Assembly (NCBI GenBank): GCA_935421135.1
Contig: OW285195.1
Location: forward strand, 4,812,701-4,876,700
DNA length: 64,000 nucleotides
Reading direction: 5' to 3'
Source: Bugulina stolonifera
Taxonomy: Eukaryota; Bryozoa; Gymnolaemata; Cheilostomatida; Bugulidae
In this document: in pieces, positions 5,926 through 55,175 of the stretch
Layout of the letters: each line of letters starts with the position of its first letter
How positions within the stretch are numbered: the stretch's first letter is position 1
Made by a program: the position numbers and the translations under genes
The notes under the pieces: generated by a model
The model's database searches: none
What the model was told of the DNA's origin: nothing
Seen by the model: only the letters and a program-made list of their open reading frames with translations

Positions 5926-6480
5926 AGTAGTATAGTCAGTGCACTTCTATACAGACACGCACTCATTGACCCCTGTTTTCAACCAATCACAAGCCGGTAT
6001 TTCCGATTTCAACCAATCACAGAAGAGCACAAAAATTTTGCACACGACCTCGCCAAGGTCACCCCAAAATCCCCCCTTCTGATTGGTCGAAAAAACATTT
6101 GCACACTTGACCCCGAACCCGGCCACGACCCCTTCCCTCCCTCCTTCCCACCCTCCTCCCCTCCCCCACCCCCCACTCCTCCCTCCTCCTCCGCCACCGC
6201 CCTCGTCCCGTCCGCACCGCCGTCGCCACCACCACCCTCACCACCGCCACCACCACCACCACCGCCGACACCACCGCCGCCGCCATCACCGTCATCACCG
6301 CCACCCCTCCTCCACCGCCGCCCACCCTCCCCCGCAACCCCCACTCACCCGAACGACCGATCGTTTGAGGCGGTCAAGCCGCGTCCGACCACGTTGCGTG
6401 CGGCGCCGATCGCACACCTGGAGGCGACGCCGGTGCCCCGTATCCACCGGGCCAAGCGACTAGGCCGCGGCCCGCCGCTT
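5926..6480 (+). repeat. Left terminal inverted repeat of element A
   Basis: About 555 bp, inverted at 25509-26067. Order from the tip: AGTAGTATAG terminus; two CAACCAATCAC boxes and one GATTGGTCG box; a GACCTCGCCAAGGTC near-palindrome; a roughly 200-bp C-rich CCN tract; then a conserved GC-rich block ending GGCCCGCCGC. The low-complexity open frames here are by-products of the CCN tract. Confidence 0.9.
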
Positions 6481-6725
6481 CTCCTGCGCCCTCACTCGAA
6501 AAGCTTGTGATCTAAACGAGCGAATTCCGCTGCACTTTGCCTATAGCTCTCATTAGCGATAAGAAGAAGTACTACGGAAGGCTTGGTTTATGATGTGCAT
6601 TGCATTATTAATGAAGAAAGATGTAAAGACTTGGCTATGAATATACTGATGGAGTGAAAACCTCCACCTATATAGTAGAGCTTAGTAGGAGGAGTCTGAC
6701 TAATTCTCCACCTATTATAATACAA
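6481..6725. repeat. C/D-type inner TIR sequence plus array-edge region
   Basis: From 6481 to about 6655 the sequence follows the inner TIR of C and D (GATAAGAAGAAGTACTACGG and onward), not that of B. The next 70 bp include CTATATAG at 6669-6676, a minus-strand TATA candidate pointing away from the array, and a CTCCACC block also seen beside B's array. No gene lies downstream of this TATA in A, consistent with loss of an ankyrin-type gene from a recombinant ancestor. Confidence 0.55.
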
Positions 6726-7170
6726 CCCGATGTGCCCCGATGTGTCCCGATGTGCCCCGATGTTGCCCCGATGTGCCCCGATGTGACCCGATGTGCCCCG
6801 ATGTGCCCCGATGTTGCCCCGATGTGCCCCGATGTTGCCCCGATGTGCCCCGATGTAACCCGATGTGACCCGATGTTGCCCCGATGTGCCCCGATGTTGC
6901 CCCGATGTGTCCCGATGTGCCCCGGTGTGTCCCGATGTGCCCCGATGTTGCCCCGATGTGCCCCGATGTGACCCGATGTGCCCCGATGTGACCCGATGTT
7001 GCCCCGATGTGCCCCGATGTAACCCGATGTTGCCCCGATGTGCCCCGATGTTGCCCCGATGTGTCCCGATGTGCCCCGATGTGACCCGATGTTGTCCCGA
7101 TGTGTCCCGATGTGCCCCGATGTTGCCCCGATGTGCTCCGATGCAAACCGATGTGATTCCGAAGCATACA
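6726..7170. repeat. Phased CGATGT array of element A
   Basis: About 40 tandem words read CCGATGTGCC, CCGATGTGAC, CCGATGTGTC (10 bp) or CCGATGTTGCC (11 bp). On the other strand these begin TCGGGGCACA and similar, so a CpG recurs every 10 or 11 bp. No stop codon occurs on the minus strand, which yields spurious reading frames. It lies between two outward TATA candidates. Confidence 0.9.
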
Positions 7171-7260
7171 AAGGGGTCTTTTCTTATTGGATGATACATT
7201 AGAAAGTTTAGTATATAAGGAAGGTTTCTACAGTGGTAGAGCAGCTTGAGTTGGATGGCT
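7171..7260 (+). promoter_or_regulatory. Array-proximal plus-strand promoter of A
   Basis: A TTATTGGATG box (about 7185) is followed by TATATAAGG (about 7212-7220), the same array-ATTGG-TATA order found in B, C and D. The gene it should drive is missing in A: sequence homologous to B resumes at ATTATTCCAAG just after a short ATGGCT, where B has an 86-codon frame. Confidence 0.5.
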
Positions 7261-7490
7261 ATTATTCCAAGATAGAAAAGATGCAGCTTTTTTCAGTAGT
7301 ATCGTTTTATTACGAAGATAAATAGAGAAAAAATAAAAGAATCAAGAAGAAATCTAAAAAGTAAAGAATCAAGCAGAAATCTAAAAAGCAAAGAAAAAAA
7401 AAGAATGCAGGTAAGATAAAAACTATTGGTCTCTTTTTTTCAGTTATAGTAGTATAAAAACGAATTATAAGTAAAGCGAAGTATTTCTCT
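7261..7490. other. 3' flank of the virion gene block in A
   Basis: This AT-rich stretch matches 16274-16513 in B. GTTTTATTACG supplies a minus-strand AATAAA for the protease end of the block, and GAAAAAATAAAAG supplies one on the plus strand. No gene is seen. Confidence 0.55.
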
Positions 7491-8018
7491 CTAGTCAAAG
7501 TGAAAAGGTGAAAAAAGCATAATATTGTTTACATGCGTTGTGGGTGGGAAAGTATTATTTCTTTTATTATAGTATAAACGTTGTAATAGAGCTCTTATAG
7601 AACGATCTCGAACACATCCTTCTACTCTGCTTAGTCGTGTAATTATTCCCTCCATAGTCCACCCTCGAGCTCGAAGGAGGCAGAACAAGATGCAGTAGTC
7701 TCCACACACGTTAGTACTCTCTTCTTGTAGACACTCACCATTCCATACTATTGGTATTCCCCATTGTTGTAACATCTTACCCACATCAGGATAAATAGAA
7801 GGGGGGAGTCCATAGGAGTCGAAATACTCTATTTCTTTTCCATTCGAAAAAACAGAGATCCAATGCTCGCCACTTTTCTCACTTGCTTGAGTGTTGAAAA
7901 CAAAAGATTCAGATGGGGAGAAGGAGTTTAAGAAATGATCCCTTCGCATAACCCCTCTAAAGGAGCTTGATGAGATTTTATCATCAGATAGAATATTCGA
8001 GATTGAGAATGTATCCAT
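7491..8018 (-). CDS. Adenain-type maturation cysteine protease, copy A
   Basis: 175 aa. This is the Polinton/adenovirus-type protease that processes virion proteins during maturation. Visible catalytic elements in adenain order: GEHW (His52), YFDSYG (Asp67), Gln98 and STNVCGDYC (Cys105), with the Gln-to-Cys spacing of seven expected for the family. It is the most 3' gene of the minus-strand block and lies five bases from the capsid gene. The frame is intact and close to the B copy. The catalytic assignment is family knowledge applied to visible motifs; activity is inferred. Confidence 0.88.
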   Translation of the reverse strand: MDTFSISNILSDDKISSSSFRGVMRRDHFLNSFSPSESFVFNTQASEKSGEHWISVFSNGKEIEYFDSYGLPPSIYPDVGKMLQQWGIPIVWNGECLQEESTNVCGDYCILFCLLRARGWTMEGIITRLSRVEGCVRDRSIRALLQRLYYNKRNNTFPPTTHVNNIMLFSPFHFD

Positions 8019-8023
8019 TCTTT

Positions 8024-9370
8024 TTACATCATCCCAGCTACCATAGATACTTCGTGATTTGCATTCAAGTAGATAATATCATCTTTTTCTTCGTATACAA
8101 ACAGTCCAAGTGTATTTTGAGTTTGATTAGCAAATGCTAGATTAATAGATAGACTCCCATTTGATAACAAGTGAAAGTTGTCATCACACAAATCTCCTGA
8201 AATGTCAAAGGCGTAGAGAGCAGCGCAGGACTTGTATTTGCTAGGGGAGATCTCATTCCCTGTATCAGCATCGGATGTATTTGTGACAGTGAACAAATTC
8301 ATGAATTCACGAGCAAACTTTCCACTTGCAAAGTTTGGTTCATATCTTCGGGTCACTGGTGTTCCATCAATTAGTAGTTCTAATGAACTTAGGTTGTTAT
8401 GTCCAAATTTGAAGGGATTTTGCTTATACGTTCCACTCTTTGCAGTATGGTTGACTAGTCCAACAAAGACTCTATTTGGCTTCTGTCCCGCTTGATCAAA
8501 GTTCACTCTCACTGACTGGTGTCCAGCAGGGATGACATGGAAATTAGTTTTTATTCGGTCAATTGGTAGTTTTATAGACTCTTGTTGCACAACCCAAACA
8601 TCCATTTGTGCTTTTTGTAAGGCCGGATTGGCTTGTACACGTCGAATCCACAATTCTGTCTTAGTTATAGAAATCTTCGCCCCTCCTGCAGGGTTGTCTG
8701 TTTCTGCTAAGAGGGCCATTTGTGGAATAGCACGTTGTAGAGTAAGGCGAGAGCGAACTCCTGGTGGAATAAGTCTTCCTTGAGAAAACATACTCAACCT
8801 AGGTCTCCCATAGAAGCTCATCTCTTTACTTGTGGCTATAAGTTTCTTTCTTTTTTCAACCACTTCGGGAGGTATACCATCATAGTCTTCTCCAGTTCCT
8901 TCATCCTCCATCCACCCACTCCCAACTTTCATATATGTGCTCTTAGCATCTTTACCATAGTTTAGGAGATTCTCGACATAAGCTCTATGTCCATAGTTTG
9001 GTTCATACTCAACATCTTGCCCAGCCAAGTGAACAGTGGCAGAAGAAAAGAGACTGTGCATAAAATTGTCCCCTGGAACAACCTTTAGTTGTTCTTCCGC
9101 AGGTAGTACGCTTCCATCAGCCTTGCTCACCTTTACTGTGGTGTGTAAGTAAGACTTTGATAGATCTGTGTAGAGTTCGTCTGCGGGCGGGATGTTAAAT
9201 TCAATAGTGCCATCAGGGGAGTCCGTAACAGGAGCCAAAGGTACCCACTCACCTCTGAGCACGCTAGTATGAGTCGGCGGAGTGGCAAATAAGTCAAAAC
9301 TGGAGTCAACCGTGTCTGGAGAGTCTTCAGAAACCTTGGAGAGAGAGATGGCTCGATGTGTGACGGACAT
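8024..9370 (-). CDS. Major capsid protein (double jelly-roll), copy A
   Basis: 448 aa. It matches the Polinton major capsid family, often auto-named F54H12.2-like in animal genomes. It would form pseudo-hexameric capsomers. The N-terminal part holds the family-like FNIPPADELYTDLSKSYLHT stretch (about 54-73), then a FMHSLFSSATVHLAGQDVE segment (about 102-121). The middle carries GRLIPPGVRSRL, and the C-terminal half holds the second beta-rich domain. The frame is intact and differs from B at only a few residues. The double jelly-roll fold is inferred from the family, not seen in the sequence. Confidence 0.88.
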   Translation of the reverse strand: MSVTHRAISLSKVSEDSPDTVDSSFDLFATPPTHTSVLRGEWVPLAPVTDSPDGTIEFNIPPADELYTDLSKSYLHTTVKVSKADGSVLPAEEQLKVVPGDNFMHSLFSSATVHLAGQDVEYEPNYGHRAYVENLLNYGKDAKSTYMKVGSGWMEDEGTGEDYDGIPPEVVEKRKKLIATSKEMSFYGRPRLSMFSQGRLIPPGVRSRLTLQRAIPQMALLAETDNPAGGAKISITKTELWIRRVQANPALQKAQMDVWVVQQESIKLPIDRIKTNFHVIPAGHQSVRVNFDQAGQKPNRVFVGLVNHTAKSGTYKQNPFKFGHNNLSSLELLIDGTPVTRRYEPNFASGKFAREFMNLFTVTNTSDADTGNEISPSKYKSCAALYAFDISGDLCDDNFHLLSNGSLSINLAFANQTQNTLGLFVYEEKDDIIYLNANHEVSMVAGMM

Positions 9371-9475
9371 GTTCGATAGTGTGAGAGTTGTTCCATCTAG
9401 TACTTGCTCCTACAGTCGCTTGTCTAAGAGTGGGGAGTGGTGAGTCTAGGTGCGGATTATATATTTATCTTTCAT

Positions 9476-9901
9476 TTAGTCAAAAACTGTTTTTCTTCCT
9501 TTACGCTTTTTCTTTGTAGACTTTTGACTAACTCGTGCACGTTTGGCAGGTGGTTCACGTAATTCGTCTTCTACATCACCTAGAAGATCCCCACCAGCTT
9601 CACGAAAACGTTTTGCTGCAGAAGATTTGAAGTTCTCTCCCTTGATTACATCTCCCAGAACCGAAGCTCCAGTAGTCAATAGCTTTTTCCCAATAGTTTT
9701 GGCACCATTCTTTAGCATGGGAAGAACCCCTCGGGCCAGTCCAGAAAAGAGTGAGCCGATCCCATTACCCGTCATAATAGGTTTTCCCCTGTACACACTC
9801 ATTCCCTCTCCCACCTGGTTTGCATAATAGTCTTCATACATCTCACCTGACTCATCAGGAAAATATGGAACTATGCGAGGGGCCATGTTATTTCTCTCCA
9901 C
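9476..9901 (-). CDS. Small basic virion protein upstream of MCP, copy A
   Basis: 141 aa. A Gly-rich, amphipathic middle (GIGSLFSGLARGVLPMLKNG, about 47-66) is followed by a helix-forming stretch and a very basic tail (PPAKRARV...KKKRKGRK). Small proteins of this kind sit next to the capsid gene in many Polintons and have been compared with adenovirus pX/pVI-type core or membrane-active proteins. The start codon overlaps the penton stop region by 14 bases, typical of a compact viral block. The virion role is inferred. The protein is identical in B. Confidence 0.7.
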   Translation of the reverse strand: MERNNMAPRIVPYFPDESGEMYEDYYANQVGEGMSVYRGKPIMTGNGIGSLFSGLARGVLPMLKNGAKTIGKKLLTTGASVLGDVIKGENFKSSAAKRFREAGGDLLGDVEDELREPPAKRARVSQKSTKKKRKGRKTVFD

Positions 9902-10313
9902 GCGGTCTGAAACGAACCGTCAGCACAACCTTTCCACTGCGAAATGAGACCCTTTCTCCATCATCACGTCTTATATCTACCTCGATGAGGTCTGTGCTTG
10001 TATTAGACACTGGAGAGTATTGAACATTCGAAAACCCAAAGAAAACGGTGCTATTTCTTTCACTCTCTGTTATAGGAACTGTGCGAAGTAGGGGGACTAG
10101 ACTATCTCCAACATGTCTTGGTGAGACTACGGAGGAGTAGACATAGAGGGATGTGAAACCAGCATTGATGTCTGGAGGGTTTTGACTCCTGTTGATTTCC
10201 GCAGCATATTCTACATCAGGTTCGAATCCCAACACCCACGCAACATCACGTGACATCATGACAGAGTGTTCCTGTTCTCTCAACATGAGGAAGGTTTCAT
10301 TCCGTAGACTATC
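9888..10313 (-). pseudogene. Penton (minor capsid) protein, N-terminally deleted, copy A
   Basis: Only the C-terminal part of the penton remains (132 codons from an internal Met, versus 248 aa in B). It keeps the LYVYSSVVSPRHVGDS segment and the EVDIRRDDGERV...VRFRPR ending characteristic of Polinton minor capsid proteins. A 436-bp deletion (equivalent to B 19344-19779) with a TCA microhomology at the join removed the N-terminal part and the end of the neighbouring integrase gene. The product could not build a normal vertex. Confidence 0.85.
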
Positions 10314-11323
10314 ACGAAACTCTCTTCTTTTCCTCTCCTCCTCCGTTTACGTATGACTTTCTCAACTCTAAAGATTTCAGGTAGGTTAACATGTTGCAAT
10401 TCTTGTGCATAGAATGTTCCATCTACTCCTTCTTTGTTTAGGTCTTCCAGTGTATAGACAGGAGGTGAGGTATGTGCCTTGACTGCTTTTATGGTGAATA
10501 TCTCGGTTGACCAGTTTGGTGTGAACCCTCGCTCAAAGCTACTACGAGCCATCGAAATCCGAACATGATCACCTGGTGAGTATTTTACTCTTGTTTTCTT
10601 TAACCATCGTTTAAGTGAGAACTCATTTAACCGAACCCAAACCTCTTCTTGATTATCGTAATCAACCTCAATAGGTTTCATTCCAATTGACCTATTAAAA
10701 CTGTTGTTATATCCTTGGACTAGGTCTTCTACATCTTCTAAGTAGCGTCCATCTCCTCTATAAGTGAGTAGACGATGAATTTTCCCTCTCAATGTTCTAT
10801 TAAAGCGTTCAACAAGAGCAGCCTTGATGATCTCATTCTCAGAGGTGAAATGGCTAACTCCGTACTTCTTTAGCACTTCACTCACCCTTCTGTTTAGGAA
10901 CTCCTTACCTTTATCAGTTTGTATTTGTCTAAAGCTTTCATTTTCGAATAGAGAGATGAGTGCATTGGACACTTCCAGACCATACTTGGAATGAAGAGGA
11001 AAGACCCATGCTTTCCGTGAGAAGGCATCTATGCAGGTGAGCAAAAATGTTACTCCATCGTTTGAGTCCTTGTGCGCACGCACATCCACGAGATCTGCCT
11101 GAAGTTGTTCACCAATCCCACTCACAAACGTTTTTCTCCTTGTAAACTTCATTCTAATCGGGCGATGAAGAGTGTATGCGTCTTGACTTCTCAACCACTT
11201 CTCAACATCATTCTCATTAATACCAGGAGGAGAAGCTAAAACTAACTTTCTCTTTCCTCCAAAAGATGGTGGTTGAGGAGGGGAGAAGTAAATATCGCGT
11301 AGACCTTCATCTATATCATCCAT
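10280..11323 (-). pseudogene. DD35E integrase lacking its chromodomain, copy A
   Basis: 347 aa. The catalytic core is intact: QADLVD (Asp77), QTDKGKEF (Asp137) and LVERFNRTL (Glu172), exactly 35 residues after Asp137. The YTLHRPIRMKF segment before the core is typical of Polinton integrases. The C-terminal chromodomain present in B is lost, because the frame runs through the deletion junction at about 10313 into penton sequence read in another frame. The core might still be catalytic but would lack the chromatin-reading tail. It overlaps the next gene upstream by 13 bases. Confidence 0.85.
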
Positions 11324-11898
11324 CTTTCTGTTTTACTATCGCTTGCAAGAGGGGTTTTAGGAAGCTTTCGCCTAAACCTAGTTTTGATAGGACTTCTATT
11401 ATCACCCTTCCTACTCCAACGTGCGCCAGCTTCTGACCTCTCTGGTTTTGTTTCTCTCCTATATGGGTGTGGTAGTGGTGACCTTGAGCCACTCCGCCTC
11501 TTTTCATCATCTCTTTTTTTCTCTCGCCCTCGCTCTTGTGCTTCTTCTTCTCTTTGTCTCCATGTATGCATTTCATTAAACCTAGTGTTAATTCCCTCTA
11601 ATGTATTATACAACTCCTGCTGGGGATGGCGTGATCTCTCCAACTCTTTTAGGAACTTATTCATTTTATGAGCATGTTGCTCTAGCTGAGAGTAGATGTC
11701 TGTATCAGAGTTTTTGAGGTTAGATATTACATCTTTTCTGCTTTTTTCTGCCCGGAGTAGATCCCCATTTGTAGAGAGTGAGGGTAGATGCTCTCCTTCT
11801 TTTTTGTTGTTTCTACTATTCATTGATTCATATGTATGTTTATCCATAAGAAGATACTTTTTAGAAAACTTGAGACTCATTTCACCTTCTTCCACCAC
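11311..11898 (-). CDS. Helical charged Polinton protein, copy A
   Basis: 195 aa. The N-terminus (KFSKKYLLMDKHTYESMNSR) and the following helical segment (about 50-95) resemble a small conserved protein encoded next to the integrase in many Polintons, whose job is unknown. From about residue 110 it is Arg/Lys/Glu-rich with RS-like stretches (EEEAQERGREKKRDDEKRR). The gene overlaps the integrase start by 13 bases and the next gene by 17 bases. Function unknown. A structural or DNA-packing role is a guess from charge and position. Confidence 0.6.
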   Translation of the reverse strand: MVEEGEMSLKFSKKYLLMDKHTYESMNSRNNKKEGEHLPSLSTNGDLLRAEKSRKDVISNLKNSDTDIYSQLEQHAHKMNKFLKELERSRHPQQELYNTLEGINTRFNEMHTWRQREEEAQERGREKKRDDEKRRSGSRSPLPHPYRRETKPERSEAGARWSRKGDNRSPIKTRFRRKLPKTPLASDSKTERWMI

Positions 11899-12280
11899 CT
11901 AATCCGCCAAGCACACCTCCGAGTAAACTTGCCAATGGCTTCAAAAGAAGACCTAAAAATCCGCCACGTTGTAGGATTAACTTTTTCTGCCTCACACTAG
12001 TACGAGAGTTGGTGAGATCTTCAATGGCCCTTCTATGTCGACGTAGAGAATTCAACTGAGCGGTAGTTAGATGAACATTACCTAATAATACATTTCTAGC
12101 ACACTCAACAAGAGCGAGTATAAGGTCTTTGTTAGCCTCAGCAATGGTTGAATCTCTGATGGTTGCAGATGCTTTCGTCAGTGCATATATACTCAAGGCA
12201 TTCCTCCTCAACCTTGGAGAATACTCGGGTGAATTAATGTATCTCATGCTTGATGATGGATGCGCTCTCTTCGAGTCCAA
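11882..12280 (-). CDS. pVI/pX-like hydrophobic core protein, copy A
   Basis: 132 aa. A central helical segment (ANKDLILALVECARNVLLGN, about 49-68) is followed by a basic stretch with RRHRRAIEDLTNSR and then by RGGFLGLLLKPLASLLGGVL near the C-terminus. This helix, basic patch and GGFL-hydrophobic tail order recurs in a ubiquitous small Polinton protein. The hydrophobic Gly/Leu tail would suit membrane disruption or capsid-core contact. That role is inferred. The frame is intact and identical in B. Confidence 0.7.
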   Translation of the reverse strand: MDSKRAHPSSSMRYINSPEYSPRLRRNALSIYALTKASATIRDSTIAEANKDLILALVECARNVLLGNVHLTTAQLNSLRRHRRAIEDLTNSRTSVRQKKLILQRGGFLGLLLKPLASLLGGVLGGLGGGRR

Positions 12281-12312
12281 GAGAGTTTATGGAGAGAGTA
12301 GAGATGTGAATG

Positions 12313-12972
12313 CTACTTATATTCCAGAGTATTCGGGATATATACAGTCATGGGAGAGTGCTCAGAAGCAAAATTACCGATCAGTCTAGCCCACTCCGGG
12401 GTTTCCTGGCGAAGATTCAAGAATAGAAAAGAGTGTGGCTTACGTGTAGCATCACTAAAAGCTTCTTGAACAGCTCTTGTACTCTGAGGAAAAGCCTGCT
12501 TTGCAAGATTGGTAACAGACATTCCGTCTCTGGGGTTCTTGAACAAGAAAAAGTACTGTGAGTTGATTGACACTGTTCTATTATCTTTCGGGAAAAGGTT
12601 CTGTAGTAAGAAAAAGACGCTTATGTTCAGGTGGTGACTGAACTTTGTAAAGATTGCATTAGTAGTCTCTTTCCCCCCGACTTCACCCATCAAGTCATCA
12701 ATGATGAGCCAGCGATTCTTCCCATCACGCTCTATATCCATTTCTACATCAATGAGTCCTGAATGAAACCTTACTTTATCCTTGTAATCCTCAAAGCGGC
12801 GTTGCCAAACTCCATAGCAGTAAATGATTTCAACAGGAGTGGGTGAAGCAATTTCATCAACTCTCTTAATAAGACTAAATAGTAGTTTCGTTTTTCCACT
12901 CCCTGTTGGACCACAGACTAGAGCTGTGAAGGGACTCTGCAAGCGAAGATCGATTTCTTGGTGTGGACGCAT
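12313..12972 (-). CDS. A32-type DNA-packaging ATPase (FtsK/HerA), copy A
   Basis: 219 aa. Walker A is GPTGSGKT at 21-28 and Walker B is LIIDD at 89-93, followed by the family-like FLLQNLFPKD and FLFKNPRDGMS segments. In Polintons and nucleocytoplasmic viruses this enzyme drives genome packaging into the capsid. Its start overlaps the C-terminal coding region of the one-TM protein by 98 bases in another frame. The reading frame is intact. Confidence 0.9.
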   Translation of the reverse strand: MRPHQEIDLRLQSPFTALVCGPTGSGKTKLLFSLIKRVDEIASPTPVEIIYCYGVWQRRFEDYKDKVRFHSGLIDVEMDIERDGKNRWLIIDDLMGEVGGKETTNAIFTKFSHHLNISVFFLLQNLFPKDNRTVSINSQYFFLFKNPRDGMSVTNLAKQAFPQSTRAVQEAFSDATRKPHSFLFLNLRQETPEWARLIGNFASEHSPMTVYIPNTLEYK

Positions 12973-13282
12973 GCTGATCCAGTTGAGTAGCTAATAGAGT
13001 TGTGTTTGTTTTTAAATAGTGTCCTTGCTTAAGTAGTCCTTTGTCTTTGCCATTGGGTGGTTCCCTATCACTTAGATATGAGTAAACTGATGGGGATAAA
13101 GATGAGCAAGAAAGTATAAATAGTATTATGATTATGTAGAGTGTGAACTTCTTTCTTTTGTTGCCTCTCTCTCCTATTTGCTCTCTTCCCTCTTCAACAG
13201 AGATAGCTACTACTTCATCTAAGAGACCATCAGCCACATCTTCATAATTCTCATTTCTACATACCACCTCTTGCTTTGACAT
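12875..13282 (-). CDS. Single-TM small protein, copy A
   Basis: 135 aa, no family recognised. An acidic N-terminal region (1-40) is followed by a basic NKRKKF patch and one membrane span (about 46-63, rich in Ile/Leu), then a Ser/Thr/Asn-rich tail with NTT and NRS sites. It is predicted as a one-pass membrane protein. Its last third overlaps the ATPase gene by 98 bases, so the tail is constrained by two frames. The same arrangement is kept in B. A virion membrane or egress role is only a guess. Confidence 0.6.
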   Translation of the reverse strand: MSKQEVVCRNENYEDVADGLLDEVVAISVEEGREQIGERGNKRKKFTLYIIIILFILSCSSLSPSVYSYLSDREPPNGKDKGLLKQGHYLKTNTTLLATQLDQHASTPRNRSSLAESLHSSSLWSNREWKNETTI

Positions 13283-13322
13283 CTTGCTCTTGTTTGAGAG
13301 AACAATTGAAATCTATACACTT

Positions 13323-14385
13323 TTATTCATCATTACTTTCCCCTGTTGGAATCCACTGCGAGAGTTTAGTATCTTCCCCTTCTGCTTTTGCATCATCATC
13401 ATCTAGCTTGTTAGCCAGGTGGAGAAGTATGTGATCAATAATTGATACACTATCCTTTTCTTCTTCTTCTTCTTTTTGCAAACGTTCGATTTCCATCATT
13501 AGCCTCTCTTTTTCCTTTCTTTCCTCTGTTAACTTTTTCTCTAAGATAGCAATGCGATTCGCTCTTCTCTCTCTCCTTTCATCAATGCTCTCTTGCATCT
13601 CTAGTGCTTCTTTCCACCCCTGTGCTCCGATTATATCCACTTTTCGTAGTGCCACTTCTAGTTCTATCCTTCTAATCTCTTGTTCCCTTTTGTTACACAT
13701 TACAGCCTCTTCTTTATTTTCTACATGAGTTTGCTCTTCTATCATAACCTGGTCATTCTCTCCTGTAGAAGTCTCTCTCACTTCCACCCTAGCTTCTCCT
13801 GGTGAAGGGTTTCTTATCTCCTCTAACCCGTTTTTGGATGGATCTAGTTCTCCAATGCCACACATTTCAGCCTCTTCTATCATAACCTGGTTAGTCTCTC
13901 CTGTAGAAGTCTCTCTCACCTCTAATCTAGCTTCTCCTGGTGAAGGGCTTCTTATCACCTCTAACCCGTTCTTGGATGGATCTAGTTCTCCAAACAATCG
14001 CCCTGCATATAGCTTATTACCTCTACTAAGAATTAAACCAGGGATGCTTTCTTCATTGAAACTCCTTTTCGCTCGCGATTTCTCCTTCCCATCCTCAAAG
14101 CGACATCTTCTTGCTCCATCCTTTAATATGTTCAATACTCTATGATAGAGCTCATTCTTTGAGCCTTCCCCACCAGGTTCATTATCCAGATATAGTAAGA
14201 AGTGAGTGTTAAATACTGCCTCCGCTCCCACACCAGTTTCACCCCAATTTCCATCTTCAATAATCTTCTCAACCTCCACTCTACACCAGGTTGACAACTC
14301 CGCATTTCTAAGAAGGAGTAAGGGAGAAGAAAGGGATGCGTTTTTTGTTTCTACCATAGATGAAAATCTTGTCCTAGCTCCTGTT
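13323..14385 (-). pseudogene. Coiled-coil protein, C-terminal part, copy A
   Basis: This matches B's 442-aa protein from its GAR-RFSSMVETK region to the stop, but upstream it runs into CCN-rich TIR sequence at 14385/14386. It keeps the duplicated GELDPSKNGLE motif and the Glu/Arg/Lys coiled coil. The missing N-terminal half is at 24906-25420, beyond nested element B. B's duplicated target AATACT lies at 14134-14139, so 252 bp after it are present twice in the window. Confidence 0.85.
14134..14385. repeat. 252-bp exact duplicate flanking nested element B
   Basis: The sequence appears identical to 24906-25157. A clean insertion at AATACT would have duplicated only six bases. Instead gene sequence continues 252 bp past the site while about 246 bp of B's left TIR tip is missing. 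This is either a chimeric assembly of an inserted and an empty haplotype, or a real recombination. Confidence 0.85.
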
Positions 14386-14868: not shown

Positions 14869-15166
14869 ATGTAATATATTAAATTGTTTAGCCTCCCTAT
14901 AAAAATATATAGTAGTAGGGTGTGAGTTATTTTTTAGCTTGATAGCATTTTATACAATAAACACTTCACAATTGCTGCCAATTACTCCATTTAACACTAA
15001 CCTTATGTTCTACTTGTTGACATCTCTGATCAGGCACTGACTAGTAGGTAGCTGTCTCTGTTTACTCTCACTCTGTTGACTAGAGGCTGATTGTTCATAC
15101 TGCTAGAGTGAGAAACTTATACCTTAAATAGTAGTATTCAGTGGGCGGAGTCTAACCATTTCCCCA

Positions 15167-15889
15167 CCCCGATGTGAATCCGAAGCCTCCCGATGTGAAT
15201 CCGAAGCCTCCCGATGCACCCCGATGTGAATCCGAAGCCTCCCGATGCACCCCGATGTGAATCCGAAGCCTCCCGATGCACCCCGATGTGAATCCGAAGC
15301 CTCCCGATGCACCCCGATGTGAATCCGAAGCCTCCCGATGCATCCCGATGTGATTCCGAAGCTTCCCGATGTGATTCCGAAGCTTCCCGATGCATCCCGA
15401 TGTGAATCCGACGCTTCCCGATGCATCCCGATGTGATTCCGAAGCTTCCCGATGCATCCCGATGTGATTCCGAAGCTTCCCGATGCATCCCGATGCATCC
15501 CGATGTGATTCCGAAGCTTCCCGATGCATCCCGATGTGTCAATTCACATCGGGATGCATCGGGATGCATCGGGAAGCTTCGGAATCACATCGGGATGCAT
15601 CGGGAAGCTTCGGAATCACATCGGGATGCATCGGGAAGCTTCGGATTCACATCGGGATGCATCGGGAAGCTTCGGAATCACATCGGGATGCATCGGGAAG
15701 CTTCGGAATCACATCGGGATGCATCGGGAAGCTTCGGATTCACATCGGGATGCATCGGGATGCATCGGGAAGCTTCGGAATCACATCGGGATGCATCGGA
15801 AGGCTTCGGATTCACATCGGGATGCATCGGGAGGCTTCGGATTCACATCGGAAGGCTTCGGATTCACATCGGGTCACATTGGGATTGGA
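15167..15889. repeat. Phased TCGGGA array of B, a giant inverted repeat
   Basis: Words of 10 or 11 bp (TCGGGATGCA, TCGGGAAGCT, TCGGAATCACA and relatives) run on the minus strand from 15167 to about 15538, then flip at CGATGTGTCAATTCACATCG and run on the plus strand to about 15889. The two arms of roughly 340-370 bp are complementary and could fold into a long hairpin or cruciform. Spacing of CpG remains 10-11 bp throughout. Open frames on both strands are by-products. Confidence 0.9.
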
Positions 15890-16012
15890 TAAAAAAAGGG
15901 AGGAGTCAAGAAATGAGCAGTTGTATAAAGGGAGAGTGGGATCACAGTCTCAGCATTCAAAGTTCACCACATCACTACTGTACAGCTACACTACTACAAT
16001 AGTACATTATCA
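15890..16012 (+). promoter_or_regulatory. Array-proximal promoter of the 86-codon frame
   Basis: A GGGATTGGAT box at the array edge (about 15881-15890) is followed by TTGTATAAAGGG (TATA at about 15914) and an ATG at 16013 about 100 bp on. A and C/D have the same order beside their arrays. Confidence 0.6.
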
Positions 16013-17041: not shown

Positions 17042-17052
17042 TTTTTTTTTTT

Positions 17053-44935: not shown

Positions 44936-46170
44936 AGTAGTATAGTCAGTGCACGTCTAGACAGACACGCACTCATTGACCCCTGTTTTCAACCAATCAC
45001 AAGCCGGTATTTCCGATTTCAACCAATCACAGAAGAGCACAAAAATTTTGCACACGACCTTGCCAAGGTCACCCCAAAATCCCCCCTCCTGATTGGTCGA
45101 AAAAACATTTGCACACTTGACCCCGAACCCGGCCACGACCCCTTCCCTCCCTCCTTCCCGCCCACCTCCCCTCCCCCTCCCCCGCCTCCCACTCCTCCCT
45201 CCTCCCCGCCACCGCCCTCGTCCCGTCCTCACCACCGCCGTCGCCGCCGCCGCCACCACCGCCCTCACCACCGCCGTCGCCGCCGCCACCACCACCGCCC
45301 TCACCACCGCCGCCGCCACCGCCGCCACCGCCGCCACCGCCGCCACCGCCGTCGCCGCCACCACCACCACCGCCGCCACCGCCACCGCCACCACCGCCGC
45401 CGCCACCACCACCACCGCCGCCGCCGCCGCCATCACCGTCATCACCGCCACCCCTCCTCCACCGCCGCCCACCCTCCCCCCGCAACCCCCACTCACCCGA
45501 ACGACCGATCGTTTGAGGCGGTCAAGCCGCGTCCGCCCACGTTGCGTGCGGCGCCGACCGTACACGTGGAGGCGACGCCGATGCCCCGTATCCACCGGGC
45601 CAAGCGACTAGGCAGCGGCCCGCCGCTTCTCCCGAGCCCTCCACTCGAAAAGCTTGTGATCTAAACGAGCGAATTCGGCTGCGCTTCGCCTATAACTCTC
45701 GTTAGCGATAAGAAGAAGTACTACGGAAGGCTTGGTTTATGATGTGCATCGCATTGTTAATAAAGAAATGTGTAAAGTCTTGGCTATAAATACACTGATG
45801 GGAAGAAGGGTTGGTTCTATGATATACATTGTATTGACAATAAAGAAACGTGTGCATGTGTTAAGTCAGCATATATAATACATTAAATAAACTTTCCGCA
45901 ATGGTGACAATAGAATGAATAAAAGATTGTGTACACGTGTTGAAACACAATTGAAAGAATAAAAGACACATATTTAAAAGAGTATGTCATATCTGTTATT
46001 AGCAAGAAAGTCTGTGTGCATGTGTTAAGACAGTGTATATCATACATTAGATAAACTTTTCACAATAGTAGCAATAGAATAAATAAAAGGTTGTGTGCAT
46101 GTGTTAAGTCAGCATTATGTAATATATTAAATAAACTTCACAATAGTAGCAATAGAATAAATAAAAGAGG
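44936..46170 (+). repeat. Left TIR of element D
   Basis: About 1.24 kb, organised as in C, with the palindrome GACCTTGCCAAGGTC intact near 45056 and a longer CCN tract. The inner AT-rich part carries the inward AATAAA series. Confidence 0.88.
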
Positions 46171-46184
46171 GGTTTAGGTACTTA

Positions 46185-47629
46185 TTACTCATCTTCATCA
46201 GAAGTTGTAGGAGCTATAATGTTTACGACTTCGGTCTCAGCATACTCTAATTGATATGCTCCAGCTCCAAACTCTTGACACAGTCTTACCTACAAGATGA
46301 TTTTAGTTTTTTACTCAGACGAATATCACTCAAGGTGGACAAAGCAAGAAATCTATACTTCTTTATGTTGTTGGTCCCTTACCATATCTGCTGATTTGTA
46401 GAGGTGAGCTAGTTGTTGAGGAGTTTCACTTTTGTAGTTACGAACTTCAGAATCAGCTCCCAATCTTAGACATGTATGTAGACATTCGTAGTCTTCATTC
46501 TCTATGGCAATGTGAGATGGGGCGTATCCATCTCCCATTCGCTATAATATCAAACAAGAGAATAGAATTAAACTCCCCATCTAACTTATCAATTCGATCT
46601 ACTCTACTTTTATTCCACTGTAATGTATTCACTTACCCTCATATCTAAGTCAGCCCGAGTATTTTTTTTTAGTACTTTTAGTGCCTCTCTATGCTTGCTG
46701 CTATGCGCTGTTTCAACAATGAGGTGGACTACACTCCTTCCATCATGATTGTAGCTCTGTACATTGTCTTGGGGAAGTGATTTGTAAGGAACTCTGAAGT
46801 ATGGATGCTTTACTTCTGCTCTGGTCAAACTTGTGGTTAGAGCATGAATAACCTTAGCTCTACCCAGACGTGCAGCAATGTGAAGGGGGGTGTCACCTTC
46901 CAAATAAACATTAGCAATATAGATAAGTATCGAATTGTTACAAGTTTTGCAATACTATATTTTTTAACAAGCAATGCATGCAAACATTGGTGCTATAAAA
47001 CACTAACCCCAAGCATCGGCTATTGCTCCATCCGCTCCCCTTGTGATGATGAGGCGAATTAGTGAATCCGAACAATAAGACTGTACAGTTAGGTGAAGTA
47101 ACGTCTGCCGATTCGCATTCTTTGTATTCAGTTGTTTGTGACTCCTCGCAACAAATACCGCGAGTGCAATGGCTCTCTCATCTCTATCTCGGGCTGCTTC
47201 TAATACCTCACTACATCATTTAGCATGATATTTGTTTTTCACATAGTTGAGAGGTAGTTATATGGGAAATTTGTCTATCATATTTTATTTTGATCATAAA
47301 ATACAATACGAAACAAAAAAAAAAAAATAGTTTGAAGTATGTATAACTTACAACTCTTCATCCTTTCCATCTTGCTCCCAAAAGATAGAACGAATTTCTT
47401 CTAGTAACTGTGTGCTAAGCTTATTACGAATATCGGTTAAAGGATCCCATTTCTGCCAGTCTAGAGGTAAGTTTTTTTGGAGAAAGAGCTCAGACACCCC
47501 CTCAAATAAGTCTTTATTCTCATACTTGCTTTGTTCTGTACATCTTTCCACTGTTACCTTCATCAGCTCTTGGTTTATAGGAGTCATTAGCTTGTTGCTA
47601 TACTCGCTTGATCCATACCCACTTTCCAT
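46185..47629 (-). CDS. IkB-like ankyrin-repeat protein, element D
   Basis: Same five-exon structure as in C: 47352-47629, 47008-47210, 46637-46896, 46383-46541, 46185-46289, with all frames and splice sites kept (334 aa). The exon 3 and exon 4 reading frames are identical to C, and exon 1 shows a few substitutions (KVTVERC for KITVERC). The N-terminal ESGYGS is preserved. An intact second copy, inserted independently, argues that the gene is functional cargo rather than a chance passenger. Confidence 0.82.
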
Positions 47630-47774
47630 GTTATTTGTGTGCTAACCCTCTTTAATTTCTATTAAGAACAGACTGGAGCTAGAAAGAGTTAACTAAAATA
47701 CTGTTTCCACCTCTCTTTATATAGTGAATAAAAAGATACAAATAAAGCTGATTGGCTAACAGCATATACATTGG

Positions 47775-49569
47775 AGCGCATTGTAAACACATCAGAGTGC
47801 ATCGAATCACATCGGGAAAGATCAAAAACACATAGGGAAACATCGAAACACATCGGGAAAGGTCGAAAACACATCGGGGGAGGTCGAAAACACATCGGGA
47901 CACATCGAATCACATCGGGGGAGGTCGAAAACACATCGGGACACATCGAATCACATCGGGGGAGGTCGAAAACACATCGGGACACATCGAATCACATCGG
48001 GGGAGGTCGAAAACGCATCGAATCCCATCGGGGGAGGTCGAAATCACATCGGGGGAGGTCGAAAACACATCGGGGGTGGTCGAAAACACATCGGGACACA
48101 TCGAATCACATCGGGGGAGGTCGAAAACACATCGAATCACATCGGGGGAGGTCGGAAACACATCGAATCACATCGGGGGAGGTCGAAAACACATCGAATC
48201 ACATCGGGGGAGGTCGAAAACACATCGAATCACATCGGGGGAGGTCGAAAACACATCGAATCACATCGGGGGAGGTCGGAAACACATCGAATCACATCGG
48301 GGGAGGTCGAAAACACATCGAATCACATCGGGGGAGGTCGAAAACACATCGAGACACATCGAATCACATCGAGGGAGGTCGAAAACACATCGAATCACAT
48401 CGGGGGAGGTCGAAAACACATCGAATTACATCGGGGGAGGTCGAAAACACATCGGGGGAGGTCGAAAACACATCGAATCACATCGGGGGAGGTCGAAAAC
48501 ACATCGAGACACATCGAATCACATCGGGGGAGGTCGAAAACACATCGAATCACATCGGGGGAGGTCGAAAACACATCGAGACACATTGAATCACATCGGG
48601 GGAGGTCGAAAACACATCGAATCCCATCGGGAGAGGTCGAAATCACATCGGGGGAGGTCGAAAACACATCGGGGGTGGTCGAAAACACATCGGGGGAGGT
48701 CGGAAACACATCGAATCACATCGGGGGAGGTCGAAAACACATCGAATCACATCGGGGGAGGTCGAAAACACATCGAATCACATCGGGGGAGGTCGAAAAC
48801 ACATCGAATCACATCGGGCGAGGTCGAAAACACATCGGGACACATCGAATCACATCGAGGGAGGTCGAAAACACATCGAATCACATCGGGGGAGGTCGAA
48901 AACACATCGAATTACATCGGAGGAGGTCGAAAACACATCGGGGGAGGTCGAAAACACATCGAATCACATCGGGGGAGGTCGAAAACACATCGAGACACAT
49001 CGAATCACATCGGGGGAGGTCGAAAACACATCGAATCACATCGGGGGAGGTCGAAAACACATCGAGACACATCGAATCACATCGGGGGAGGTCGAAAACA
49101 CATTGAATCACATCGGGGAAGGTCGAAAACACATCGGGACACATCGAAACACATCGGGGGAGGTCAAAAACACATCGGGTTACATCGGGGAAGGTCGAAA
49201 ACACATCGAGACACATCGAATCACATCGGGGGAGGTCAAAAACACATCGGGGGAGGTAAAAAACACATCGGGTTACATCGGGTTACATCGGGTTACATCG
49301 GGTTACATCGGGTTACATCGGGTTACATCGGGTTACATCGGGGAAGGTCGAAAACACATCGGGACACATCGAATCACATCGGGGGAGGTCGAAAACACAT
49401 CGAGACACATCGAATCACATCGGGGGAGGTCGAAAACACATCGGGGAGGTCGAAAACACATCGGGTTACATCGGGTTACATCGGGTTACATCGGGTTACA
49501 TCGGGTTACATCGGGTTACATCGGGTTACATCGGGTTACATCGGGTTACATCGAATCACATCGGGATGC
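47775..49569. repeat. Phased TCG array of element D (1.8 kb)
   Basis: The same vocabulary of 10- and 11-bp TCG words as C but in a different order and number, with larger TCGGGTTACA blocks (49268-49335 and 49462-49553). It lies between the ankyrin promoter (TATATAAAG on the minus strand near 47716-47724) and the Cys/His promoter. Plus-strand frames of up to 502 codons are treated as by-products. Confidence 0.93.
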
Positions 49570-49736
49570 AATAAATCAGACTAAAAAAAGGCACATCACT
49601 TCTGATTGGACAGAGATTTCCATAAAAGCAAGTGTGAGAGAGGATTTTTATCATTACCACTCAACCACCTAGTAAAGACTTGCAACTCTGTGGATATTTA
49701 CTGATTTCTCTGAATAAACATCACTCAACAATTAAT
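49570..49736 (+). promoter_or_regulatory. Promoter and 5' UTR of the Cys/His gene, element D
   Basis: The ATTGGACAG box and CCATAAAAGC are conserved with C, and the ATG is at 49737. Confidence 0.6.
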
Positions 49737-52700
49737 ATGGTGAGTAAACTTATTTTAATACGTATTTTAGTATGAATTTACTCATTTGAGTTAACATTGG
49801 GAGTAATTCTATTTTAGTAGTGATATAATACTCCCTTGGTATGACTAGAGCTTAGAAACTTTGTAAGCTTATGTATTAAACTGTTTTGATTCTCAACATG
49901 AGAGCAAGTATGTAGAGATCTGATCTGTCTATACTACAATTTGTGTGACCGGAGCTTAGAAGCTTTATATGTGGTGAGATTTTTTTCAATATGAGTAGTT
50001 ATACCACTAGTAGTGTAATAAGTATCAAAACAGTTTATTACCACTTGTACTGGCTATACTAGTACATCCTAGCTATTTTAATATGTATTTTAATATGAAC
50101 TTACTCATTTGAGTTAACATTGGGGCTAATTATATTTTAGTAGTGGTATAATTCTCCTTTGGTATGTCCAGGGCTTAGAAACTTTGTAAGCTTATATATT
50201 AAACTGTTTTGATTCTCAACATGAAAGCATGTGTGTAGAGATCTGCTCTGTCTATACTACAATTAGTGTGACCATAGCTTAGAAGCTTTATAAGTGGTGA
50301 GATTTATTTTCAATATGAGTAGTTATACCACTAGTAGGGTAATAAGTATCAAAACAGTTTATTACCACTTGTACTGACTATACTTGTACATCCTAGCAAA
50401 GAAGTATATTATCAAGTGTAGCCTATACTCTACATCCAAGACTATACTGTACTAAAGTGGTCTATCACAATACTTGGGGTGGACTTGCTGCTAAAAAGAT
50501 TAACTGGATAATTCTAATGAATAGGTCTGCACTAAAGTGATTTATTACACTACTTGGGATGAGCTTGTTGCTAAAAAGATTAACTGGATAATTCTAATAA
50601 ATAGGTCTGCACTAAAGTGATTTATTACACTACTTGGGATGAACTTGTTGCTAAAAAGATTAACTGATTAATTCTAATAAATAGATCTGCACTAACACAA
50701 GAGTAATTTATCTCTCTGTTTGGGAGGAGCTTACCATCAGAAAGACTCAATTGGTTGAAAAACACATAAAAAGTAAGGGGTGGTATTTTTGGTTTTTTTT
50801 CTGTCTTATACTGATTATTCACTTCAAAATTAATTCTTGCTAACACATGTTCTGTTTATCTGTTCTTGTTTCTATTCCCCAGTGACTATGGTGAGTTGGT
50901 GGTTTTATCCACACAGTTAAGGCTTTAGTATATATTATTACTTGTTATTTTACTTGCCTATGTTATTCATTCTAAAAGTAGTTGTTATCAGTATTCTTAT
51001 TCTCTTGCTCAATAACTATAGGGATTAGTATTTTTGTATGCTTGACTTGTACACTACCACTATGCTCATGTTTCCTATATATTTTTATTCATTCTTATTT
51101 TCTTTGTTTAGTAACTATGTTGCATTAGTAGTTCCGTTTACTTGACTTATGCTTTGGTATATGTTTATTACTCTACATATACTTACAGGCTTCTACATCT
51201 AAATATCAAAGAAAGAAATATATAAGAAAAATTAAAACATCAAAAAAAGGTACGAAGTATATGATTACGTATGACTCGGAAGACAGAAGACGAATCTCGA
51301 GGAAAAGAATCCCATCTCCAGAAATGGTTAGTCTATTATCTTATTTGTTCACACATGCATTACACCTTCAATCCACTATGGTGTTGGGTTTCTAAGATGT
51401 CAAAGGAGATTACTGACATTTCTGCAGAAGTACATGTTAGTTACACATAATGATGATGTACTTTTTTATACTATAAGCCTCTTACCATGTCTAGAATGTC
51501 AAAAGAGACTACTTCCTTTTTAAAACCAGATGTTAATTAGTCATAGTATGATTTTCTCTAATTCTATAAGTCTCTTACCATGTCTAAGATGTTAAAGATT
51601 AGTGATATTTTTATTATAAGTATTGCACTTTCTTTCTTATGTATTATTTTTATCAATAAGACACTTTTTTTTTCTTTTCTTATGTGAAAAAATATAACAT
51701 AAATTACAACTGATTTTCTTATGTTGATGATGTATTTCTCTTTATGTGAGTAAATAGACAGGCTTTAGTAGACTTGCTTAGTACTTAGAGTGCTAGTTTT
51801 TTCATCAAATTCTTCAAAAACCATATATTGCAAATAACTATGTTAATGTAGTTTGTTAATTAGTCACTGCACATTTTATTTACATTATAGAATGAAAAAG
51901 AAACAGATCTAGGGGAAGAAGAGATTGCTTTATTTGAACAATGTGGGGGAGTAGATGGCTTCGAGATAGGTAAGAATGATTTAGTATCTATTTGTATATT
52001 TAGAATCTTTTTTTTTTTTTTTCTGATTTACAAGTAAGTCATATGTTCTCTCTCACTTATTCTTGTTATTTTCTTTCTTTTTTAGGACTCAGAGCAAAGT
52101 CGTTATGTAAGGGGGGTCTAAGATTCTATGTCTTTGTTAGTGATGAGACGAAAAGAAGACTGGAGATGTCACTAACAAAGCCATTTGAATCGGATGACCC
52201 CTGTTTTTTATGCAATAAGAATGTTGGGCACCGACGAGGTGTCCACATTCAACAACATTTTTTGTTCCGAATCTGTTTTTGCTATCACATAACAGTGGAT
52301 GATGAGGGGATGAATAGACACTACAACTTTCCATCTAATCATCATATTGATGGAAAGCCCTGTCACCGACACATCTCCTTCAACACACGCTTTCTAACAG
52401 ATATCTATTCATTAAAAAAGACCATATCCTTTTTGCAAAGGGTCACTGGTCACTCTCCACCTTCCAAAATACTCATCCCCGCATACACTCCAACAACTGT
52501 TGGTGGGGTAGTATACCCTCCCTTCTTTAAGGGGGTGTCTACTACTCCATTCTCTTTAAAGTCTGGGGTGTGCTCTTCACAATTTCCTCTCCCTTCTCAC
52601 CATCATTTTGATTCAGATGCTTCTTCCATCAGTAACTCTCTTACTAATGGAGACATTACCATCTCTACTTCTTCTCTTACAACTACTACTATTACTACTA

Positions 52701-53380
52701 CTCCTTCTACTACTTCTTTTCCTCCACTCTTTTCTTCACATACACCCTCTCATTCTCCTGAAAGATCTGTAAAGTCTGGGGTGTGCTCTTCACAATTTCC
52801 TCTCCCTTCTCACCATCATTTTGATTCAGATGCTTCTTCCATCAGTAACTCTCTTACTAATGGAGACATTACCACCTCTACTTCTTCTCTTACAACTACT
52901 ACTATTACTACTACCATTACTACCACTCCTTCTACTGCTTCTTTTCCCCCACTCTTTTCTTCACATTCACCCTCTCATTCTCCTGAAAGATTTGATGATA
53001 CAGTTACCACTGTTTCGATACCTACTTCTACTCCCACCTCTTCACCTGCTCCACTCTTTTTCTTAGATTCACCCTCTTTTTCTCTTGGAAGGTCTAATAA
53101 TACAATTACTAGTCTTTCAATACCTACTTTTATTACTACTTCTACTACTACCACTTCTTCCTTTTCTTTAGCTTCACCCTCTCTTTCTTTTGGAAGAGAG
53201 CTACTTAGCTTGCAATCTCCTTCTTGTTCGTCTGAACTCAATCTTAATACCCCCACCACTATTACCCCCATAGAAGAGGAGACTGTCAGTGACATTTTTC
53301 ATCTCAAGAAGAATGGGTATCACAGAGAGGTAATAGCACAAGCTGAAGCTTACCTTCGAGTCAGTGAAGAAAAGCTCTAA
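49737..53380 (+). CDS. Unrecognised Cys/His-rich protein, element D
   Basis: Exons: ATG 49737-49739, 51189-51326, 51891-51969, 52086-53380 (1515 coding bases, 504 aa). The splice sites are the same as in C. The basic N-terminus, Cys/His region and duplicated KSGVCSSQF unit are all kept. Compared with C, 22 residues (an ELVDRSRLPP...-type segment) are missing near the C-terminus by an in-frame deletion, which leaves the terminal helix. Intron 1 is about 780 bp longer and contains three copies of a roughly 90-bp TTAACTGGATAATTCTAAT repeat (about 50440-50690). Confidence 0.7.
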
Positions 53381-53929
53381 TCATCTTTTCTTTTTTCTCC
53401 CACTCTCTCTCTCTCTGTAGTGTCTCATTCCCTCTGCATTTACTTTTATGTGATATCAAATCAGTGAGGATTTTTTTTTTTTTAAATTATTTTTTAAATT
53501 ATTATATAATGGTATTCTAACACTTATACACATCCTTTTATACATTCTATTGCTACTTTTGTAAAAAAGTTTATTTAATGTATTATATGTGCTGACTTAA
53601 CACATGCACACAGCTGTCTCTTGCTATAATAGCTATGACATACTCCTTTACATATGTGTCTTTTATTCTTTCAATTGTGTTTAAATCATATTATAATGAT
53701 ATTTCAACATGTGTACACAATCTTTATTTATTCTATTGCTACTATTGTGAAAAGTTTATTTAATGTATTATATATGCTGCCCTTAACACATGTACACAGA
53801 CTTTTCTTGCTAACAATAGCTATGACATACTCCTTTACATATGTAGCTTTTTTATTCATTCTATTGCTAGTGTTGTAAAAAGTGTATTTAATGTATTACA
53901 TAATGCTGACTTAACACATATACTCAATC
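53381..53929. repeat. AT-rich 3' flank with roughly 75-bp repeats, element D
   Basis: The same organisation as 40782-41295 in C, with small insertions and deletions. Confidence 0.65.
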
Positions 53930-55175
53930 TTTTATTCATTCTATTGCTACTATTGTAAAAAGCTTATTTAATATATTACACAATGCTGACTTAACACATG
54001 TACACAACCTTTTATTTATTCTATTGCTACTATTGTGAAAAGTTTATCTAATGTATAATATACACTGTCTTAACACATGCACACAGACTTCCTTGCTAAT
54101 AACAGATATGACATACTCTTTTAAATATGTGTCTTTTATTCTTTCAATTGTGTTTTAACACATGTACACAATCTTTCATTCATTCTATTGTCACCATTGT
54201 GAAAAGTTTATTTAATGCATTATATATGCTGACTTAACACATGCACACGGTGGTTCTTTGTTGTCAATACAATGTATATTATAGAAACAACCCTTCTTCC
54301 CATCAGTATATTTATAGCCGAGACTTTACACATTTCTTTATTAACAATGCAATGCACATCATAAACCAAGCCTTCCGTAGTACTTCTTCTTATCGCTGAA
54401 ACCGAGCCTTCCGTAGTACTTCTTCTTATCGCTAACGAGAGTTATAGGCGAAGCGCAGCCGAATTCGCTCGTTTAGATCACAAGCTTTTCGAGTGGAGGG
54501 CTCGGGAGAAGCGGCGGGCCGCTGCCTAGTCGCTTGGCCCGGTGGATACGGGGCATCGGCGTCGCCTCCACGTGTACGGTCGGCGCCGCACGCAACGTGG
54601 GCGGACGCGGCTTGACCGCCTCAAACGATCGGTCGTTCGGGTGAGTGGGGGTTGCGGGGGGGAGGGTGGGCGGCGGTGGAGGAGGGGTGGCGGTGATGAC
54701 GGCGGCGGCGGCGGTGGTGGTGGTGGCGGCGGCGGCGGTGGTGGCGGCGGTGGTGGTGGTGGCGGCGACGGCGGTGGCGGCGGTGGCGGCGGTGGCGGCG
54801 GCGGTGGTGAGGGCGGTGGTGGTGGCGGCGGCGACGGCGGTGGTGAGGGCGGTGGTGGCGGCGGCGGCGACGGCGGTGGTGAGGACGGGACGAGGGCGGT
54901 GGCGGGGAGGAGGGAGGAGTGGGAGGCGGGGGAGGGGGAGGGGAGGTGGGCGGGAAGGAGGGAGGGAAGGGGTCGTGGCCGGGTTCGGGGTCAAGTGTGC
55001 AAATGTTTTTTCGACCAATCAGGAGGGGGGATTTTGGGGTGACCTTGGCAAGGTCGTGTGCAAAATTTTTGTGCTCTTCTGTGATTGGTTGAAATCGGAA
55101 ATACCGGCTTGTGATTGGTTGAAAACAGGGGTCAATGAGTGCGTGTCTGTCTAGAAGTGCACTGACTATACTACT
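53930..55175 (-). repeat. Right TIR of element D
   Basis: About 1.25 kb, inverse of the left TIR, ending at 55175 and followed by CCAGCC. Confidence 0.88.

Follow-up and report, generated by a model that had tools for sequence, protein, structure and literature searches.

Can elements that have the same ends and exclusive gene sets be parts of one Polinton genome? The question is raised by a stretch of 64,000 nucleotides of the bryozoan Bugulina stolonifera (contig OW285195.1, positions 4,812,701 to 4,876,700; hereafter the window), in which four elements, A to D, are bounded by one type of inverted repeat. A and B (class AB) carry an integrase, a packaging ATPase and probable capsid genes, and C and D (class CD) carry an ankyrin gene and a gene for a Cys/His protein. 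An earlier note on this DNA had proposed two segment types; we find at least three coding classes, and the class with the predicted type-B DNA polymerase, termed F, lies outside the window.

We consider it likely that A–D represent two segment types, out of three or more, in a multipartite Polinton, the segments of which complement each other in trans. The more specific proposal of an obligately tripartite integrating double-stranded DNA (dsDNA) virus with at least three segments, each having its own ends and each packaged and inserted separately by AB products, with the gene-free class E as defective or satellite segments, has in our estimate about an even chance. What holds both estimates down is mainly that the reading of class F is limited to a single 7-kb interior and that its repeat agrees with the others at the tip only.

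Recurrent elements and their gene content

The terminal 19-mer of the repeat, with at most 1 mismatch, is present in 703 + 708 = 1411 copies in the whole genome (a 235-Mb assembly of 27 contigs). The same pattern reversed occurs 0 + 0 times, so that chance is excluded as the source of the tip copies. The elements bounded by these tips are recurrent and mostly 8.4–11 kb long. With up to 2 differences tolerated in the markers (up to 3 for the marker of the F gene for a protein of 256 amino acids (aa)), the AB capsid marker has 198 copies, the Cys/His marker 143 and the ankyrin marker 144. The AB and CD markers account for about half of the tips. A search with a prefixed tip revealed a variant with a final G instead of C, present in 329 + 332 = 661 copies genome-wide. 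The polymerase marker of class F has 274 copies and the marker of the adjoining 256-aa gene has 260.

Gene content was followed pair by pair on two contigs, counting only the exact marker places that were listed. The C-tip sample comprised 100 exact tips (contig C1 and part of C2), 2 of them without an ordinary pair, and gave 49 inward-facing pairs; the 100 listed G-tips, 14 of them without an ordinary pair, gave 43. Among these 92 pairs, 23 contain the AB marker only, 22 CD markers only, 35 polymerase markers only and 12 none, and not a single pair is mixed. The capsid and CD markers are confined to C-tip pairs and the polymerase markers to G-tip pairs, the F polymerase marker being present in 0 of the 23 AB and 0 of the 22 CD marker-bearing pairs; three markers on the sampled stretches fall outside every listed pair. 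The earlier note proposed a genome-wide search and took a small number of recurrent, intact classes, one with polymerase B, as support for segments; the classes AB, CD and F agree with this expectation.

By sequence, the 49 C-tip elements (18 read over most or all of their length, 31 sampled by 601- or 161-bp probes) are 23 AB, 23 CD, 2 gene-free elements (class E) and 1 unclassified; four additional probed pairs are 2 AB and 2 CD. Both F markers are found in 33 of the 43 G-tip pairs, the polymerase marker only in 2, that of the 256-aa gene only in 2 and neither in 6; the last are 7.3–9.7 kb long and could be F copies in decay or members of an additional class. The median lengths are 10.7 kb for AB, 9.5 kb for CD and 9.7 kb for F. 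Target duplications of 6 bp are identical in 9 of 9 C-tip elements read with both ends and in 8 of 8 F elements tested. Their composition is alike across the classes (A commonest at position 2 and T at position 5, in small samples of n = 11, 10 and 8), as expected from one integrase.

Class E combines AB/CD-type ends with 80-bp repeats and with arrays close to either end. One of its elements (L025, C1:17537418-17546083, 8.6 kb) has no open reading frame (ORF) of 100 aa or more outside the repeats and arrays; the second (L058), of 6.9 kb, is known through one probe.

The polymerase class and its links to the others

Judged by its sequence, class F is a carrier of a type-B DNA polymerase. The 7.0-kb interior of one 9.7-kb F element (L082) contains two long frames with C2H2 fingers above the cut-off, and its match to DNA_pol_B_2 (E = 4.7e-4, 19.6 bits) is under the cut-off of 25.8; a Vsr-like block is also present, and a following frame has a DTDS motif, recognised by eye. 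The first polymerase frame has 39 database relatives, 8 of which carry a precomputed PF03175 domain, and the best five are 42–49% identical over 82–97% of the frame and 1066–1266 aa long. L038 and L039, two copies of F, exceed the PF03175 cut-off of the genome-wide scan only jointly with neighbouring matches. The view that there is no polymerase partner, drawn from 11 PF03175 matches alone, was dropped, because the F polymerase is split and weak-scoring and L038 and L039 are themselves F copies. The F polymerase region has no DNA match in the window. At C1:14505550-14505589 two F-type tips stand head-on, separated by two bases; the resulting 40-bp palindrome looks like an element deleted to its tips.

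Where the ends were compared, the outer repeats of AB, CD and E are almost letter-for-letter alike. When the 44-base AB/CD repeat is given the F letter, exact matches are absent, and the matches with up to 3 mismatches total 708; the 661 F tips cannot be accommodated within this total, and F therefore diverges from the AB/CD repeat past the tip. AB and F have in common a phased array together with the adjoining 395 bp of promoter and ORF start (98%), the ORF being truncated in AB and longer in F. One CD variant, L026, lacks the ankyrin region and has an array of the AB/F type as well as a remnant of the promoter; its positions 3839-5430 match no class. The module common to AB and F and the variant L026 suggest recombination between the classes, and therefore that the classes met in one cell.

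The tips and arrays held in common, the ORF start that AB keeps in truncated form and the AB/F-type array of L026 would also fit deletion derivatives of a monopartite parent, be it rare, missing from the assembly or in circulation outside the genome. We regard this origin as very improbable, given the absence of mixed pairs among the 92, the class-specific tip base and the selection on the genes of the classes described below. The sole capsid–Cys/His marker pair on contigs C3–C4, 7.2 kb apart, fits two neighbouring elements by the usual marker-to-end distances, and these contigs have no other cross-class marker pair at 8 kb or less. Two over-length elements were read through, L018/L019 (15.0 kb) and the longest pair, L027/L028 (17.2 kb, an AB element), and each is single-class with an unrelated insert of 5.5–6 kb. 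Elements of 15–20 kb that have this repeat and unite polymerase, capsid and IkB genes, which the earlier note had set against its own proposal, are absent from the approximately 92 of about 700 pairs that were examined.

Elements A–D and their genes

The elements of the window are the following.

5926..14385, no strand: element A, left part, with the tip at 5926, the left repeat to ~6478 and minus-strand genes; AATATA just before it
~6726-7166: phased array of element A, within the left part
~14397-24905, no strand: element B, nested in A; right repeat 24173-24905, then AATACT
24906..26067, no strand: element A, right part; right repeat 25509-26067, AATATA directly after
33302..42545, no strand: element C (class CD); inverted repeats 33302-34494 and 41296-42545, CCTGTT duplication
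44936..55175, no strand: element D (class CD); inverted repeats 44936-46168 and 53928-55175, CCAGCC duplication
63963..64000, plus strand: tip of a fifth element that runs out of the window

C (9.2 kb) and D (10.2 kb) are complete, with CCTGTT and CCAGCC, respectively, at both flanks. A spans 5926-26067, interrupted by B; it measures about 9.4 kb without B and has AATATA at both flanks. The left repeat of B lacks its outer 257 bp and has A sequence of equal length in their place (14134-14396). Positions 24906-25157 are the same as 14134-14385 (100% over 252 bp), that is, the continuation of A past B is duplicated at the left of B. The missing outer repeat may be an assembly or haplotype artefact, or a product of gene conversion. 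The outermost 130 bp of the repeat are near-identical in the seven intact A–D ends and 11 further copies compared. The common tip which the earlier note had ascribed to all four elements is thus present at seven of the eight ends and missing at the left of B; likewise, the 6-bp target duplications described there flank A, C and D on both sides, B having AATACT on the right only. The CCN tract was found again (as CCN/GGN tracts), and so was the internal phased TCG array, in the form of CATCGG/CCGATG arrays with spacings near 10, 11 and 21 bp; the palindrome and the CCAAT boxes of the repeat are unscored observations by eye.

A 102-bp satellite lies on both sides of A (5719-5925 and 26065-28001), and the AATATA duplication falls within the satellite unit. 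At 56904-61535 lies an ORF of 1543 aa that is rich in TPRs and contains 132-bp repeats. The tip of the fifth element adjoins a gag-like ORF with CCHC knuckles, seen by eye, at 62594-63565; a probe 4.5 kb inward from this tip (L081) matched none of the classes.

The genes of class AB form a row on the minus strand in both A and B. They are listed here for B, with its array and promoter region.

15165..15884, no strand: phased CCGATG/CATCGG array of B, in two opposed halves
15871..16264, plus strand: promoter region and ORF start common to class F, 98% (387/395)
16514..17107, minus strand: probable adenain/Ulp1-like protease, labelled by eye (Peptidase_C5 E = 0.14, below cut-off)
17053..18438, minus strand: probable major capsid protein, 461 aa, a putative identity from size, order or motif
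18505..18948, minus strand: small basic core-like protein, labelled by eye
18917..19687, minus strand: probable minor capsid protein, from a motif alone
19718..20797, minus strand: integrase with rve core and chromodomain (Pfam)
21778..22455, minus strand: packaging ATPase; the A copy at 12313-12990 matches Pox_A32 with E = 1.4e-6
22788..24143, minus strand: ORF of 451 aa with no assigned function

In the B copy of the integrase both rve (E = 2e-11) and Chromo (E = 1.2e-6) pass the cut-off, and the ATPase match to Pox_A32 reaches 28.5 bits at a cut-off of 22.8. The 461-aa probable capsid protein has 39 further relatives among the database matches listed; searches of PDB and Pfam with a profile of 28 sequences gave no capsid match. 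Five AB proteins searched against PHROGs had no match. Two AB copies 98 kb apart (L021 and L022) have the identical left 6-bp flank GCCATG, and one of them may be a segmental duplication instead of a new insertion.

The viral contigs scanned with capsid, polymerase and integrase queries contained no confirmed relatives, and this lack of exogenous relatives, together with the hundreds of integrated copies, would suit a consortium of transposons with the same three-part division of labour, moving inside the nucleus only and making no particles. The selection on the probable capsid and ATPase genes speaks against such a consortium, and the class medians, all within about 9.5–10.7 kb, are as a packaging limit would give; of all the readings weighed here we hold it to be the least probable.

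The genes and arrays of class CD are as follows.

34682..35974, minus strand: ankyrin gene of C, four open frames, probably spliced (the frames were read apart, unjoined), in part Bcl-3/IkB-like
36107..37683, plus strand: phased array of C
39339..40781, plus strand: Cys/His ORF of C, 480 aa, with a low-complexity middle
47774..49565, plus strand: phased array of D
52004..53380, plus strand: Cys/His ORF of D, 458 aa

Compared with structure chains, one ankyrin exon has MIB1 and Bcl-3 at the top, and another has generic and designed ankyrins. Of the IkB-like gene postulated in the earlier note, the ankyrin repeats therefore stand, and the firm IkB label was dropped, since MIB1 and Bcl-3 lead for one exon only. 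The 480-aa Cys/His ORF has no homologue in 8000 scored candidates. The recognised ORFs of CD include neither replication nor virion genes, and the CD elements have no DNA match to AB genes, in agreement with the earlier statement that A/B and C/D have no genes in common. The CD frames showed no in-frame stop codon; one copy has a one-base gap in one ankyrin exon.

Changes were counted among 11–12 copies of AB, 9–10 of CD and 3 of F; the copies are related and the p-values are uncorrected for multiple testing. A synonymous excess over the neutral expectation is present in 6 of 10 AB genes: the integrase (p = 9.5e-5), the probable capsid gene (0.0002), the core-like gene (0.0006), a 134-aa gene (0.001), the ATPase (0.002) and the probable minor capsid gene (0.024). 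Both polymerase frames of F have it as well (p = 4e-14 and 2e-8). In CD it is weaker (ankyrin exons p = 0.012, N-domain of the Cys/His protein 0.041), and two noncoding controls have none (p = 0.53 and 0.14).

Proposed division of labour, its alternatives and known systems

The same genome contains other Polintons. A classical family has 6 loci, 97.8–100% alike where compared (L029–L035, L060, L061), and carries on a single DNA both the polymerase (L032 matches PF03175 with E = 3.8e-27) and an integrase-like ORF; a further polymerase-B lineage has 2 loci (L036 and L037, 99.8% alike). These residents give weight to the possibility that one class, or a resident classical Polinton, acts as a helper and that the remaining classes are its satellites, which would have retained the ends while cargo was gained or lost; CD especially may be a hitch-hiker. 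The gene-free class E, which indicates that non-coding passengers do exist, and the lack of replication and virion genes among the recognised CD ORFs point in the same direction. On the other side, AB and F each lack the recognised functions of the other, so that neither would make a complete helper. Identity between the classical integrase and that of AB is only 25%, and a tip search with up to 5 mismatches in the 16 kb beside the classical polymerase gave 2 weak matches, about the chance level. Some selection is also seen on the CD genes. We therefore consider a helper with satellites unlikely, though a good deal less so than deletion derivatives or a transposon consortium.

In the multipartite Polinton that we prefer, segment AB would provide the integrase, the packaging ATPase and the probable capsid genes. 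The type-B DNA polymerase and the 256-aa protein would come from segment F, and the ankyrin and Cys/His genes, which probably act on the host cell, from segment CD. The F polymerase would copy the linear segments, starting at the common tips; the AB integrase would insert all segments, giving the 6-bp duplications, and AB proteins would package them. CD would modulate the host, and the phased arrays may be control or origin elements common to the segments. What we observe are discrete classes in many copies, common tips, target duplications, gene content that is exclusive within the sample, selection on genes of the classes and the module common to AB and F; that the classes act in trans, are packaged and depend on one another is what we infer.

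Several observations weigh against this division of labour. The F repeat matches that of AB/CD over the terminal 18 bases only, and the copy numbers of the classes are unequal (198 for AB, 143 for CD and 274 for F). The gene content of F comes from two partial copies and from 7.0 kb in the interior of one 9.7-kb element, one F copy carries two stops, and the approximately 2.7 kb of F outside the sequence read might still hold an integrase. Some AB copies have stops or frameshifts; the AB protease, 195-aa, 145-aa and 451-aa genes have no significant synonymous excess (p = 0.54, 0.98, 0.51 and 0.08), nor does the whole Cys/His ORF (p = 0.10). The pair-by-pair sample covers 92 of about 700 elements (about 13%, with about 87% remaining), and the resident classical Polintons could supply polymerase or integrase in trans.

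Classical Polintons are 15–20 kb long and carry all genes on one DNA. Our elements resemble Polintons/Mavericks (polintoviruses) in the integrase with rve core and chromodomain, the A32-type ATPase, the type-B polymerase, the inverted repeats and the 6-bp duplications, and differ from them in that the genes are distributed among three or more elements, each about 10 kb long, the polymerase being off AB and CD. As to the complementarity of gene sets expected of a multipartite genome, none of the 92 pairs is mixed, and the exception in kind is the truncated F ORF start in AB. In the open-licence literature, which leaves subscription papers and preprint servers outside the search, no multipartite Polinton was found.

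Adintoviruses and other 'meldviruses', as presented in part of PMC11071296, likewise have adenovirus-class virion genes and an integrase with a C-terminal chromodomain, and some genomes with adenovirus-class virion genes have no recognizable polymerase B or integrase; unlike our elements, no partner segment with common ends is described for them in section 16 of that paper. The Bidnaviridae have a segmented genome, a Polinton-derived polymerase B and terminal repeats (parts of PMC4061559 and PMC11071296), with two segments in separate capsids and up to twelve segments in some relatives (PMC11071296, in part); the silkworm bidnavirus has single-stranded DNA segments of 6–6.5 kb, a parvovirus-derived capsid and an SF3 helicase (PMC4061559 and PMC11071296, in part). 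Our elements, in contrast, are dsDNA insertions that carry an integrase and virion genes of the Polinton type, and the scanned AB, CD and F ORFs (some small ORFs lay outside the scan) gave no Pfam match to a parvovirus-type capsid or SF3 helicase. Polydnaviruses have several DNA segments in the host genome, with ankyrin genes on some of them; the segments described here differ in bringing their own replication and integration genes and in being dispersed in hundreds of copies.

If our interpretation is true, the Polinton lineage, thought to stand near the root of many eukaryotic dsDNA viruses, can divide its genome, and 'incomplete' or 'non-autonomous' Polintons deserve re-examination as possible segments. 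The near-identical copies in hundreds, the class-specific tip base and the common arrays make both mechanism and history directly testable. The family would then offer, beside the bidnaviruses and polydnaviruses, a case for how the segmentation of DNA virus genomes arises.

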